Assembly: GCA_029256085.1 (NCBI GenBank)
Contig: JAQSYP010000005.1
Location: forward strand, 1-64,000
Length of the DNA stretch: 64,000 nt
Direction: 5' to 3'
From: Caryophanales bacterium
Lineage (GTDB): Bacteria > Bacillota > Bacilli > CAJFEE01
The notes under the pieces are model-generated. The model was not told the origin of the DNA. It saw only the letters and a program-made list of their open reading frames with translations, and did not search any database. Numbering within the stretch: position 1 is the stretch's first letter; each line of letters opens with the position of its first letter. A program made the position numbers and the translations under genes. Positions 19,831 through 55,554 of the stretch are shown one piece after another.

Positions 19831-19994
19831 AAAAAAATCCTCCCATTTAAAATGGAAGGATTAGTCGCACCTAATTGTAAAATAACTCAAATAAGCTATT
19901 ACATTTGATTGCTTAGCTAGAATTGAAAATGGGCAGACTAATCCTATTTTTGTGTAATTTGAAATATCAAATTTCCGCATAAAAATAAGATTAG
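19831..19994 (-). promoter_or_regulatory. Transcription attenuator (terminator plus mutually exclusive antiterminator stems) in ABC-F leader
   Basis: minus: terminator atccttccatt-tta-aatgggaggat+T7; antiterminator aggattagtc (19936-19945) pairs 10/10 with gactaatcct (19857-19866); upstream stem ctaatcttatttttatg/cacaaaaataggattag. Confidence 0.75.
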
Positions 19995-20198
19995 TTAATC
20001 ATTATCCACCCATCACTCCTTAATATTGTTAAAATTAGTATAACACTAACTTGTAAGTAATCAAAGTACCCCAACTATCATATGCTTCATAATTACAGAT
20101 GTTAATATTCTGTATTTAATTGGTTAATGAGATAAAACATTAAAAAACAGTTATAATGAATGATATTGATAATAAAAGCTGCAAGGATGGAATCTAAC

Positions 20199-51135: not shown

Positions 51136-51552
51136 ATGAAGGTAGATAGTATCGACGTAGCAAAGGCATCTATTGAATTAGCTATATCAACTAGAGAAGG
51201 CGAAAAAGTACTTGAACAAAAATATAAAGAACAAAATATTTTAACAGTTGCTGTTGATGTTGGTGGTAATATAAATAACTCAATCTCAAAAATGTTGGAA
51301 AGAGCTTTAGTTGCTGCCAAAAGAAATGGCGTTATCAAAGAATGTCATTCACATGAAGGAGCAGTTATCGGGGCTGCTCGAGAGGCTTTAAATCAAATTT
51401 CTGCAAAAGCTAATGGTTTAAATGTAGGTGGTAAAATTGGTATAGCTCGAAGCGGTGAGCATTTGAGCATTGCAATTTTTATGAGCATAGGAGTTTTACA
51501 TCTGAACGACTTAGTTATTGGAATTGGTCATCGCTCAATTTCAGATATTTAA
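51136..51552 (+). CDS. HutP-family RNA-binding antiterminator
   Basis: VDVGGNINNSISKMLERALVAAKRNGVIKECHSHEGAVIGAAREALNQISAKANGLNVGGKIGIARSGEHLSIAIFMSIGVLHLNDLVIGIGHRSI. Confidence 0.8.
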   Translation: MKVDSIDVAKASIELAISTREGEKVLEQKYKEQNILTVAVDVGGNINNSISKMLERALVAAKRNGVIKECHSHEGAVIGAAREALNQISAKANGLNVGGKIGIARSGEHLSIAIFMSIGVLHLNDLVIGIGHRSISDI

Positions 51553-51603
51553 AAAAGAATATTGAAAATATTTGGAAACTAATATAAGATACTGAATATA
51601 ATA

Positions 51604-51698
51604 TAGAAATTTGTAGGTACTTAACTGTAGAACTGTAGATGGCATGAGCCAGTAGGATTTTCGTAGATATTTAACATAGTAGAATGGTAGATTTGTAG
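51604..51698 (+). promoter_or_regulatory. UAG-repeat leader: tandem ~50 nt units TAG-n4-TTAAC-n2/4-TAG-n5-TAG
   Basis: Unit 1 TAG 51614/51628/51636; unit 2 TAG 51664/51680/51688/51696; TTAAC at 51621 and 51671. Confidence 0.75.
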
Positions 51699-51757
51699 GA
51701 GATAAAGTATATAATTCATTAGGGATAAGTGTGCCCTATGGGTTTATTTTGCTATCT

Positions 51758-51790
51758 AAGCTCTCCTAGACGGAGGGCTTTTTTGTTTTA
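51758..51790 (+). terminator. Intrinsic terminator in ABC operon leader (attenuator)
   Basis: aagctctcc-tagac-ggagggctt then ttttgtttta; 51762-51768 tctccta can pair with 51696-51702 taggaga. Confidence 0.85.
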
Positions 51791-51841
51791 TCTCCTCATT
51801 ATTAATAAAAATAAAAATTATATTTTCTGGAGGATGGTAGT

Positions 51842-52858
51842 ATGGTAGGGAAAAAAACAGCAGCACTTTTAACAGCATTAGTTTTGACAACAACAATTTT
51901 TGGAGGGTGCTCTAAGACAGAAACAACTTCTGTTAACGGAACAAAAAGTGAAGATAAGGTTTTCAAAATCGGAATAACCCAGATTGTTGAACATCCAGCT
52001 CTCGATGCAGCTAGAAAAGGTTTTGTAGAAGCTTTAGAATCAAAAGGGTTTAAAGATGGAGAGAAGATTGAAATTGATTTTCAAAATGCACAAGGTGATA
52101 TGCAAACAGCGCAAACAATTGCACAAAACTTTGTTTCAGAGAAACAAGACATGATATTAGCAATCGCAACACCTACAGCACAAGCAGCATTTAATGCTAC
52201 AAAGGAAACACCTATACTTATAACTGCTGTAACTGATCCAGTAAAGGCTGGACTTGTTAAATCTATGGATAAATCAGAAACAAATGTAACTGGAACTTCA
52301 GATGATGTTTCTATAGATAAACAGTTTGAGCTACTGAGAAAATTGTTGCCGGACAGCAAAACAGTAGGAATTATCTATAACACAAGTGAAAGTAATTCTG
52401 AACTTCAGGTGCAAAACGCTAAGAAAGCAGCACCAGGGTTTGGATTAGAAATAAAAACAGCAGGTATTACAAACGTAAATGAAATTCCACAAGCGCTTAG
52501 TTCTCTTATAGGGAAAATTGATGTTCTTTATATACCTACAGATAACTTAGTGGCTTCAGCAATGCCGTTAATTAGTAATAATTGTTATAAAAATAATACA
52601 CCAATTATTGGCTCGGAAAAGGCTCAAGTTGAAGCTGGTGCACTTGCAACAACTGGAATTGACTACTTTGAACTTGGTTTCCAAACAGGACTTATGGCGG
52701 TGGAGGTATTAAACGGAAAATCTCCAAAAGATATTCCATTAACAACTTTAAAAGAAATGCAACTAGTGATTAATACAGATGCAGCAAAGAAACTAAAAAT
52801 TAACATCCCAGTAGAAATAGCTAGTAAAGCTGAAAAAGTAACAGGTGGGGTTAAGTAA
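51842..52858 (+). CDS. ABC transporter substrate-binding lipoprotein (TrpX-like, ABC_sub_bind family)
   Basis: Lipobox IFGGCS; FKIGITQIVEHPALDAARKGFVEALESKGFKDGEKIEIDFQNAQGD; ATPTAQAAFNAT. Confidence 0.9.
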   Translation: MVGKKTAALLTALVLTTTIFGGCSKTETTSVNGTKSEDKVFKIGITQIVEHPALDAARKGFVEALESKGFKDGEKIEIDFQNAQGDMQTAQTIAQNFVSEKQDMILAIATPTAQAAFNATKETPILITAVTDPVKAGLVKSMDKSETNVTGTSDDVSIDKQFELLRKLLPDSKTVGIIYNTSESNSELQVQNAKKAAPGFGLEIKTAGITNVNEIPQALSSLIGKIDVLYIPTDNLVASAMPLISNNCYKNNTPIIGSEKAQVEAGALATTGIDYFELGFQTGLMAVEVLNGKSPKDIPLTTLKEMQLVINTDAAKKLKINIPVEIASKAEKVTGGVK

Positions 52859-52884
52859 AAATGAAAAATTTGGAGGATGGTAGT

Positions 52885-53898
52885 ATGGTAGGAAGAAAGT
52901 CAGCATTACTAGTAGCAAGTGTTCTAGCTTTTTCAATTTTTAGTGGATGTTCTAATTCGGAAAAAGTGACAGTAACAAGCTCGACAAAAGAAGAAAAAAT
53001 TGTGAAAATCGGAATTTCACAATTAATGGAACACCCAGCTTTAGATGCTTCTAGGAAAGGCTTTATCGATGGCTTAAAAGAAGCAGGTTTTGAAGAAGGA
53101 AAAAATATTAAAATTGACTTCCAAAATGCTCAAGGGGATCAACCGACTACACAAACAATTGCACAAAAGTTTGTGAACGATAAGGTCGATATGATTTTAG
53201 CAATCGCAACACCACCAGCACAAGCGGCATTCAATGCAACTAAGGATATCCCGATTTTAATAACGGCAGTTGCTGATCCTGTAAAAGCAGGAGTAGCTAA
53301 GTCATTAGAAAGTTCTGAGACTAACGTTACAGGTACAACGAATAGTACCCCAATTACTAATAGACTGGATTTAATTAAAAAGCTAGTCCCTAATGCTAAG
53401 AGAGTTGGGGTTTTATATAGTACTAGTGAAATTAATGCTCAAGTACAGGTAGATGCTGCGACAAAAGCTGCTCCCGATTTCGGATTTGAAATCGTAACAG
53501 CGGGAGTAACAAATGCAAATGAAATTCCCCAAGCAATGAATTCATTAGTTGGAAAAATAGACGCACTGTTCGTACCAACAGACAATTTAGTTGTTTCGTC
53601 AATGCCGATCATTTCCGATATTTGTTTAAAGAAAAGAATACCAATAATCGGCTCAGATAAAGGTATTTCAGATAAAGGAGCATTAGCGATTACAGGTGTA
53701 GATTATTATAAGCTAGGAAAACAAACTGCAGAAATTGCAGTGGAAATTATCAACGGTAAAAAACCACAAGATATTGAAATTGGAATTTCTAAGGATCTTC
53801 AACTTGTCGTAAATACTGATGTAGCAAAAAAATTAAACATAACAATTCCTAAGGAAATTGATGAAAAGGCAGAAAAGGTAACTGGGGGAGTGAGGTAA
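52885..53898 (+). CDS. ABC transporter substrate-binding lipoprotein, tandem paralog
   Basis: VKIGISQLMEHPALDASRKGFIDGLKEAGFEEGKNIKIDFQNAQGD; same start context ggaggatggtagtATGGTAGG. Confidence 0.9.
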   Translation: MVGRKSALLVASVLAFSIFSGCSNSEKVTVTSSTKEEKIVKIGISQLMEHPALDASRKGFIDGLKEAGFEEGKNIKIDFQNAQGDQPTTQTIAQKFVNDKVDMILAIATPPAQAAFNATKDIPILITAVADPVKAGVAKSLESSETNVTGTTNSTPITNRLDLIKKLVPNAKRVGVLYSTSEINAQVQVDAATKAAPDFGFEIVTAGVTNANEIPQAMNSLVGKIDALFVPTDNLVVSSMPIISDICLKKRIPIIGSDKGISDKGALAITGVDYYKLGKQTAEIAVEIINGKKPQDIEIGISKDLQLVVNTDVAKKLNITIPKEIDEKAEKVTGGVR

Positions 53899-53900
53899 AA

Positions 53901-54797
53901 ATGAGTTTACTTCTTAGTGTTTTCGAACAAGGATTAATTTTTGCTATTGTAAGTATTGGTGTATATATAACTTATAAAATACTAGATTTTCCAGACTTAT
54001 CTGTTGATGGAACATTTCCATTAGGAGCAGCAGTAACGTCAGTTTTATTATTGAACGGAACAAACCCATTTCTTGCTAGTTTAGCAGCTTTTGTTACTGG
54101 CTGCATTGGCGGAGCGGTAACAGGTTTTCTCCATGTTAAATTAAAAATTACAAATCTACTTTGCGGGATTTTAGTAATGATTGCTTTATACTCAATTAAC
54201 TTAAGGATAATGACAAAATCAAATATTCCATTGTTTGGCGAGAGTACAGTGTTTTCAACTTCATTAATGCCATTAGTGATTATTGGAATATTTGTAGTTT
54301 TGGTCAAAATTGGTTTGGATTTGTTTTTAAAAACGAAGCTTGGATTTATATTGATTGCTACAGGGAATAATGAACAGCTAGTTACAATGCTGGGGGTTAA
54401 CAAGAACAGTATAAAAATGCTAGGATTAATGCTTTCAAACGGTATCGTAGCTTTAGGTGGTGCTCTAATGGCCCAGTATCAAGGGTTCTCGGACGTTGGT
54501 ATGGGTTCAGGAATTGTGGTTATGGGTCTAGCAGCAGTAATCATGGGTGAAGCTTTATTTAAAAGGATGAGTTTTATAAAGGCAACAACAATGGTAACTT
54601 TAGGATCAATATTGTATAAAGGGGCAATTGCTATTGCCCTACAATTAGGATTAGCGGCAACGGATTTAAAACTTATAACAGCAGTTATTGTTGTTATTGC
54701 ACTTTCATTCAAAGGCAATTTTAGCCTTAAACCTAAGAAAAACTATGGGGGTGAGGCAAATGCTAAAATTAGAAAACTTGTCCAAGACGTTCAATAA
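53901..54797 (+). CDS. ABC transporter permease (TrpY-like)
   Basis: VYITYKILDFPDLSVDGTFPLGAAVTSVLLLNGTNPFLA; YSINLRIMTKSNIPLF. Confidence 0.9.
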   Translation: MSLLLSVFEQGLIFAIVSIGVYITYKILDFPDLSVDGTFPLGAAVTSVLLLNGTNPFLASLAAFVTGCIGGAVTGFLHVKLKITNLLCGILVMIALYSINLRIMTKSNIPLFGESTVFSTSLMPLVIIGIFVVLVKIGLDLFLKTKLGFILIATGNNEQLVTMLGVNKNSIKMLGLMLSNGIVALGGALMAQYQGFSDVGMGSGIVVMGLAAVIMGEALFKRMSFIKATTMVTLGSILYKGAIAIALQLGLAATDLKLITAVIVVIALSFKGNFSLKPKKNYGGEANAKIRKLVQDVQ

Positions 54798-55554
54798 AGA
54801 TACAGTTAACGAGAATTGTATTTTTCAAAACTTAGATTTTCATGTTAAACAAGGAGATTTTGTCACGATTATAGGAAGTAATGGTGCGGGGAAATCCACA
54901 TTACTCAATATTATTGCGGGATCACTAGACTGTGATGAAGGCATTATACAATTAGGTGGCAATTTAATTAGTAAAGTACCAGAGTATAAGCGTGCAAGAA
55001 CTATTGGTAGAGTATTTCAAGATCCTACAAAAGGCACGGCTCCTGATATGACAATCCTTGAAAATTTATCAATGGCTTTTAATAAGGGTAAAACTTTCGG
55101 ATTAACTAGAGGTATTAATAAGAAAAATGTTAACCTCTTCAAATCCCTCTTATCTGAGCTGAATTTAGGACTAGAAGACAAATTAGAATCTAAAGTAGGA
55201 TTACTTTCTGGAGGACAAAGGCAGGCATTGTCGTTAATATCTGCAGTAATGTCAAAGCCACAGCTATTACTTTTAGATGAGCATACAGCCGCTCTAGATC
55301 CAAAAACTTCTGAGAGAATAATTGAAATTACTGCGAAGGTTGTAGATGAAAATCAAACTACTACTTTAATGGTGACTCACAACCTAAATCATGCAATTAA
55401 ACTAGGTAACAGACTAATAATGATGCATAGAGGAGAAATAGTAGTAGATATCGAAGGCGAAGAAAAGCAAAATTTAACTGCCGAAAAGCTATTAAAATAT
55501 TTTGATGACGTTCAAGGTAAAGAACTATTGAGCGACAGAATGTTATTTTCATAA
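54760..55554 (+). CDS. ABC transporter ATP-binding protein (TrpZ-like)
   Basis: IIGSNGAGKSTLLNIIAG; LLSGGQRQALSLISAVMSKPQLLLLDEHTAALDPKTSERI; start with gggggtgagg SD, overlaps permease. Confidence 0.92.
   Translation: MLKLENLSKTFNKDTVNENCIFQNLDFHVKQGDFVTIIGSNGAGKSTLLNIIAGSLDCDEGIIQLGGNLISKVPEYKRARTIGRVFQDPTKGTAPDMTILENLSMAFNKGKTFGLTRGINKKNVNLFKSLLSELNLGLEDKLESKVGLLSGGQRQALSLISAVMSKPQLLLLDEHTAALDPKTSERIIEITAKVVDENQTTTLMVTHNLNHAIKLGNRLIMMHRGEIVVDIEGEEKQNLTAEKLLKYFDDVQGKELLSDRMLFS

Follow-up and report, generated by a model that had tools for sequence, protein, structure and literature searches.

A HutP-fold protein encoded directly upstream of an ABC importer operon probably works in the manner of TRAP rather than as HutP in the strict sense. 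In the 64,000-nucleotide stretch of DNA that we analysed (the window), the gene for this protein is followed by an array of UAG triplets, an intrinsic terminator and the importer genes (Table 1). We put at about 0.7 the probability that the protein, when bound to its ligand, represses the importer both by terminating transcription and by blocking ribosomes, in each case through pairs of UAG triplets separated by 5 nt (UAG-n5-UAG). The same figure covers the model as a whole, including the view that regulator and target travel together at this locus as a mobile module, and that this module belongs to a second HutP-family branch. The evidence, read from sequences, comes from the fold, an altered ligand site, motif conservation, RNA pairing, synteny and co-occurrence.

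Table 1. Features of the hutP-like gene, the leader and the importer operon (positions in the window; SBP, substrate-binding protein; SD, Shine-Dalgarno sequence)
Feature	Position	Strand	Basis or remark
HutP-family gene, clostridial (aroH-linked) branch	51136..51552	+	138 aa, Pfam PF09021 6e-46
Candidate promoter TGGAAA-18-TATAAT, 3' of hutP-like gene	51573..51602	+	10/12 consensus
UAG array, 10 UAGs	51604..51698	+	sequence; n5 enrichment over 58 leaders
Putative antiterminator 5' strand UAGGAGA, holds last UAG	51696..51702	+	7-nt complement of 51762-51768
Inter-strand region, hairpin-capable	51703..51757	+	local fold -18.9 kcal/mol with antiterminator
Intrinsic terminator	51758..51787	+	9-pair stem 51758-51780, then U-rich run; counterparts in most leaders
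Putative translational operator, SBP1	51829..51848	+	SD GGAGG, UAG-UAUGG-UAG spanning start codon 51842
ABC substrate-binding lipoprotein 1 (SBP1), CD0873-like	51842..52858	+	Pfam PF04392; PDB 6hni 347 bits
Putative second translational operator, SBP2, GGAGGAUGGUAGUAUGGUAG	52872..52891	+	at start ATG 52885
ABC substrate-binding lipoprotein 2 (SBP2)	52885..53898	+	D/Y pocket pair; listed start 52861
ABC permease (BPD_transp_2)	53901..54797	+	Pfam
ABC ATPase	54760..55554	+	Pfam

The HutP-like protein and its genomic setting

The gene had been described in a sequence-only reading of the window as a HutP-like ORF that does not precede hut genes, and database comparison agrees on both points. The product is a full-length match to PF09021 (156 bits against a cut-off of 25), and 3' of the gene there are no hut catabolic genes; two ABC_sub_bind genes, a permease gene and an ATPase gene are found there instead. 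A phmmer search of the PDB with the protein gave no significant match, and the relationship to solved structures came from a fold search. The AlphaFold (AF2) model, with a pLDDT of 95.5, is matched best in Foldseek by the HutP structure 1vea (TM 0.81, with 19% sequence identity in the structural match), and the top 11 matches are all HutP.

The predicted ligand site differs from that of HutP. With B. subtilis numbering set by an ungapped alignment of Bacilli HutP with 1vea, the residues H73, H77 and H138, which are the His/Mg ligands of the B. subtilis protein, are G, G and D in the window protein, so that by its metal- and histidine-coordinating residues it is not HutP sensu stricto. The same positions hold G, G and E or D in all 51 members of its branch, and the histidines are retained in 7/7 hut-type proteins. 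The divergent ligand region suspected in the one protein is thus a property of the branch, from which R88 is also gone; E81 is largely retained (46 E, 5 D), and H71, H109, H132 and R133 are branch-specific invariant residues. Judged from the model and these alignments, the aroH-linked branch has kept the family fold and lost the histidine site.

HutP-family proteins occur in 255 of the 398 genomes of the phylum that were sampled, and their neighbourhoods fall into distinct arrangements. For Bacilli members, hutH lies directly after hutP at 27 of 29 loci and close by at the others. Among the 30 best-scoring non-Bacilli members sampled, aroH (chorismate mutase) lies directly 3' of hutP in 29, the remaining locus being near a contig edge, and at some of these hutP-aroH loci a gene for DAHP synthase (DAHPS) or an aromatic aminotransferase comes next. 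The comparative search that the sequence-only reading had proposed, for HutP homologs beside ABC_sub_bind operons, showed, for the 80 nearest relatives of the window protein, the same SBP-permease-ATPase operon directly downstream in about 57, with n5 spacing conserved in the leaders.

The window protein is the sole HutP homolog in the 2.6-Mb host genome; the one further genome sampled from the host's taxonomic family lacks a homolog. Its closest relatives are clostridial (80-82% identity). A tree built from 88 family members groups it with proteins of Lutispora and Clostridium (97% SH-aLRT) and puts the hut branch of Bacilli (99%) far away. Given this clostridial nesting and the distance from the hut branch, horizontal transfer is the simplest account, and on the sequence comparisons the protein was apparently acquired from clostridia.

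UAG pairs in the leader and at start codons

The UAGs of the array start at 51604, 51614, 51628, 51636, 51653, 51664, 51677, 51680, 51688 and 51696. They include the two units of about 50 nt reported previously, which begin at 51614 and 51664, and n5 spacing is found between 51628 and 51636, between 51680 and 51688, and between 51688 and 51696. Taken by itself, the window shows a weak UAG excess (12 TAGs against 9.0 in dinucleotide shuffles, with 193 of 2000 shuffles as high, and 3 n4 plus n5 pairs against 0.6, 40 of 2000 shuffles), and comparative evidence was therefore needed. Across 58 leaders of hutP-importer loci we counted 136 TAG-n5-TAG pairs, compared with 16.6 +/- 4.4 in dinucleotide shuffles, which puts the n5 spacing first noticed in a single leader on a much broader footing. 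Pairs with n4 spacing are at chance in the same leaders (19 against 16.2), and spacings of 0 and 2 nt are elevated too. An n5 pair outside the ribosome-binding site is present in 48 of the 58, with UAUGG as the most frequent spacer.

HutP sites have a 4-nt spacing between NAG triplets. The hutP-importer leaders depart from this rule of HutP sensu stricto. Applied to Bacilli hut loci as a positive control, the count has its maximum at n4 (35 n4, 18 n5).

In 45 of 51 leaders the region separating hutP from the array holds a promoter-like match of at least 10/12, mostly TTGACA-17(-TATAAT); the score of the window element is by itself not above chance. Given such an element, a separate transcript probably starts here with the array as its 5' leader. 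Neither the window leader nor the related leaders tested gave an Rfam match, whether to a riboswitch, a T-box or any other family. The window's only Rfam match is ncr1575, a Bacillus sRNA, at 19831-20034 on the minus strand (134 bits).

UAG-n5-UAG motifs also lie over the start codons of both SBP genes, where the sequence-only reading had missed them. The layout over an SBP start is GGAGG-AUGG-UAG-U-AUG-GUAG; the SD and the position of this putative operator make 52885 the most likely start of SBP2, not the listed ATG at 52861. The two operators are the only exact matches to the motif in the whole host genome, and the wider regulon described below is thus not present in the host. The start-codon operator is kept in 47 of 58 SBP orthologs. 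At clostridial loci the motif occurs at 44 of 556 SD-bearing ORF starts, all 44 beginning MV as the SBPs do, and is absent from the other approximately 510. A search of 37 clostridial genomes gave 24 exact matches, 23 of them at SBP starts, and none for the reversed pattern. Several of these SBP-start motifs are in genomes with hutP elsewhere, implying action in trans. As would be expected of a TRAP-like system, the candidate sites overlap the ribosome-binding site of a transporter gene. TRAP itself reportedly acts in this way at trpP.

The first AUG of the operator also opens a mini-ORF, AUG-GUA-GUA-UGG-UAG, which in the window reads MVVW followed by a stop, with similar readings at many loci. 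Control might accordingly be based on translation, either of this mini-ORF or through UAG stops in a leader-peptide attenuator that senses Trp-tRNA, but this seems very improbable. We rejected the mini-ORF because the 8-nt spacing of the UAGs shifts the frame at each repeat, the UAG copies in the leader lack start codons, and four loci disrupt the mini-ORF yet retain the SBP start. In a C. puniceum/chromiireducens-like group of five importer loci the first UAG of the ribosome-binding-site operator and the canonical terminator have been lost, and control of these loci may have diverged. Loss of the operator in some leaders, for example the C. beijerinckii-like L121 and L129, counts against the proposed model.

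Terminator, proposed antiterminator and polarity

The terminator and its complementarity to UAGGAGA, both pointed out earlier, recur well beyond the window. In the window the stem has 9 pairs, of which five are G-C and one is G-U, and TAGGAGA at 51696-51702 is complementary to TCTCCTA in the terminator 5' arm. For leaders with a terminator, each locus was folded over the segment bounded by the last UAG and the terminator 5' arm, and an antiterminator with the last UAG in its outer helix was obtained in 37 of 38, or in 30 of 38 when 60 nt more of upstream sequence was included. With these 60 nt, the window RNA is predicted to form a competing long hairpin (-34.2 kcal/mol) that displaces the antiterminator, and this is the main weakness of the antiterminator model. 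The antiterminator pairing is the best of all windows in 27 of 43 leaders and in 17 of 36 aro/hutP leaders. Compensated variants include UAGGGA:UCCCUA (locus L064), UAGAAC:GUUCUG (L081) and AGGAA:UUCCU (L079), and a Fusobacterium leader (L123) has an 11-bp version. Because the helix is mostly invariant, covariation support is limited to a few variants, and for the same reason the advantage of true over swapped partners in duplex energy is small (-7.6 compared with -6.9 kcal/mol).

In the 37 leaders, then, UAG sites overlap a predicted antiterminator that would fold before the 3' arm of the terminator is made, as in TRAP-type attenuation. Since the conserved pairing puts the last UAG in the antiterminator, protein binding should favour termination, and the antitermination originally proposed for this locus is not supported. 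The best reading of the polarity that we infer from these pairings is repression by TRAP logic, opposite in sign to HutP antitermination.

In the mechanism we propose, the ligand of the HutP-fold protein is probably an aromatic amino acid, most likely tyrosine, otherwise phenylalanine, and the loaded protein would bind UAGs 5 nt apart with the recognition consensus UAG-NAUGG-UAG. The bound protein would mask the last UAG and prevent UAGGAGA:UCUCCUA pairing with the terminator 5' arm; with the antiterminator blocked, the terminator would form and transcription of the importer would stop. On transcripts that escape, protein on the start-codon motif of each SBP gene would block ribosomes. When ligand is absent, the antiterminator would form, ribosomes would load and the importer would be produced.

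The classic sign of HutP regulation, in which the ligand-bound protein on the array would stop the terminator from forming and the importer would be on in the presence of its substrate, is unlikely. In its favour are the HutP fold and the UAG array, the ability of B. subtilis HutP to keep a terminator from forming (PMC7430163), and one UAG (51767) inside the terminator loop of the window. However, that UAG is not conserved across leaders, the conserved pairing assigns a UAG to the antiterminator, operators over the start codon are compatible with repression only, and linkage to aroH and DAHPS biosynthesis suits feedback repression rather than substrate induction.

Proposed aromatic regulon, ligand and related systems

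In a scan of the 398 genomes the motif, usually with a terminator, was found before DAHP synthase-tyrA/aroA/aroC/pheA operons, and also before or over hutP-aroH. Upstream of DAHP synthase genes, UAG-n5-UAG is present in 24 of 59 regions from genomes with HutP and in 0 of 21 from genomes lacking it (Fisher p = 0.0002); many of the 35 HutP-positive regions without the motif may not be operon starts. Some of the DAHP synthase motifs are on the ribosome-binding site and some are ahead of terminators. What had been taken for a single-operon switch therefore looks like the importer end of a wide clostridial aromatic regulon, with a second, translational operator. In Clostridia, where operons of aroH, DAHP synthase and tyrA/pheA are preceded by the same family and motif, the branch would act as an aromatic amino acid repressor analogous to TRAP.

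The arrays could be regulatory and yet be read by another factor, the hutP-like gene being a neighbour by chance. Recognition by the HutP-like protein is argued from sequence, some targets in HutP-positive genomes have no motif, and two HutP-negative MAGs, incomplete (80 and 87%) and outside the 59/21 comparison, have arrays before DAHP synthase. We consider such a reader quite unlikely in view of the synteny of hutP with two different target classes, the co-occurrence of motif and HutP at DAHP synthase genes, the known preference of HutP for spaced UAGs, and the fact that one and the same test yields n4 in the hut branch and n5 in the aroH-linked branch. From these observations we infer that the HutP-like protein itself binds the UAG pairs, and synteny and leader comparison support the control of the transporter by the HutP paralog that had been suggested.

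Several leaders carry additional features. Just after the UAG array, eight DAHP synthase leaders of related genomes have a conserved element, GGAUGGUGGGAA...GCCAUUGGUG, perhaps another RNA structure with a regulatory role. UAG-n5-UAG arrays at two other loci precede genes for a TRAP-type (DctP) transporter and a phenylacetate-CoA ligase-like protein, which are possible further members of the regulon. One DAHP synthase leader from a HutP-positive genome has the T-box-like sequence GGGTGGTACCGCG, which suggests that T-box and HutP-type control have been interchanged. Four loci with UAG arrays and terminators upstream of the hutP-like gene itself suggest that hutP-aroH operons are autoregulated.

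The closest solved relative of both SBPs is CD0873 of Clostridioides difficile. Tyrosine specificity in CD0873 is set by Glu263 and Tyr279, and the tryptophan binder SP1069 has Ala and Gln at these positions (PMC6816091). SBP1 has the CD0873-type pair (E259/Y275) and SBP2 has it in part (D266/Y282); among readable SBP copies of the locus set, 58 of 62 have the E/Y pair. The substrate of the importer is, from these residues, probably tyrosine. The CD0873-type pocket, together with aroH, tyrA and pheA as other targets, makes tyrosine (or phenylalanine) our best guess for the ligand of the HutP-like protein.

A different effector acting through the same module and mechanism, whether tryptophan, phenylalanine, histidine or a shikimate-pathway metabolite, is a serious possibility, at somewhat less than even odds. 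The targets include the common pathway (DAHPS, aroA, aroC), and the nearest NCBIfam name for both SBPs is TrpX. Their scores (324 and 316 bits) are, however, below the TrpX cut-off of 390 (NF041285), the Trp-determining position in readable loci is Y, with few F or N and never Q, and the His site is lost from the HutP-like protein. With both specificity residues those of CD0873, tryptophan transport by the importer, which had been described from sequence alone as TrpX-type, is not supported.

The proposed repressor can be set beside four known systems. With TRAP (MtrB) it would share a regulatory logic in which a protein carrying its amino acid binds UAG repeats, some of them overlapping an antiterminator and others, elsewhere, the site where ribosomes load on a transporter mRNA. 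TRAP repeats are reportedly G/UAG, about 2 nt apart, whereas the pairs here are n5; the folds are unrelated, the window protein having the predicted HutP fold, and TRAP senses Trp while the window protein probably senses Tyr or Phe. With B. subtilis HutP (PDB 1vea, 1wmq) it shares family, modelled fold, and spaced UAG/NAG triplets near an intrinsic terminator (PMC7430163). It differs in all three coordinating histidines, in triplet spacing, in linkage to aroH, DAHPS and importer rather than hut genes, and in that it is predicted to terminate transcription and block translation rather than antiterminate. The trpXYZ genes of Streptococcus suis, for a related aromatic amino acid ABC importer, are likewise attenuated, but by a tryptophan T-box, a tRNA-sensing riboswitch (PMC9382623) of a kind that has no match in our leaders. 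The CD0873 importer shares the Glu/Tyr pair with SBP1 (PMC6816091) and differs from the window importer in the Asp at the Glu position of SBP2, and tyrosine as substrate is a prediction here.

Taken more broadly, it is on balance probable that this HutP-fold family supplies the aromatic amino acid attenuator so far missing from much of Clostridia, and from some Fusobacteria. It would sense Tyr or Phe, bind UAG-n5 arrays, and repress DAHPS, aroH and tyrosine importers through termination as well as ribosome blocking; it would be convergent with TRAP, and would have moved together with a transporter operon into a Bacilli genome. In the open-access literature, to which our search was confined, we found no link of HutP to aromatic genes or chorismate mutase and no clostridial HutP regulator, other mentions of HutP being general ones; as far as we found, a role of HutP relatives in aromatic genes across Clostridia has not been described before.

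HutP has so far stood as a one-operon curiosity of histidine use in Bacillus. If the model is correct, hut regulation would be a minor branch and most HutP-family proteins would be regulators of aromatic amino acid genes, so that a large family known solely through its hut members would gain a function. Clostridia would use a protein attenuator to control both the shikimate pathway and aromatic import, and two unrelated folds would have converged on UAG-repeat attenuation. The n4 histidine and n5 aromatic branches would then form a natural series in which to follow how ligand and RNA register change together.
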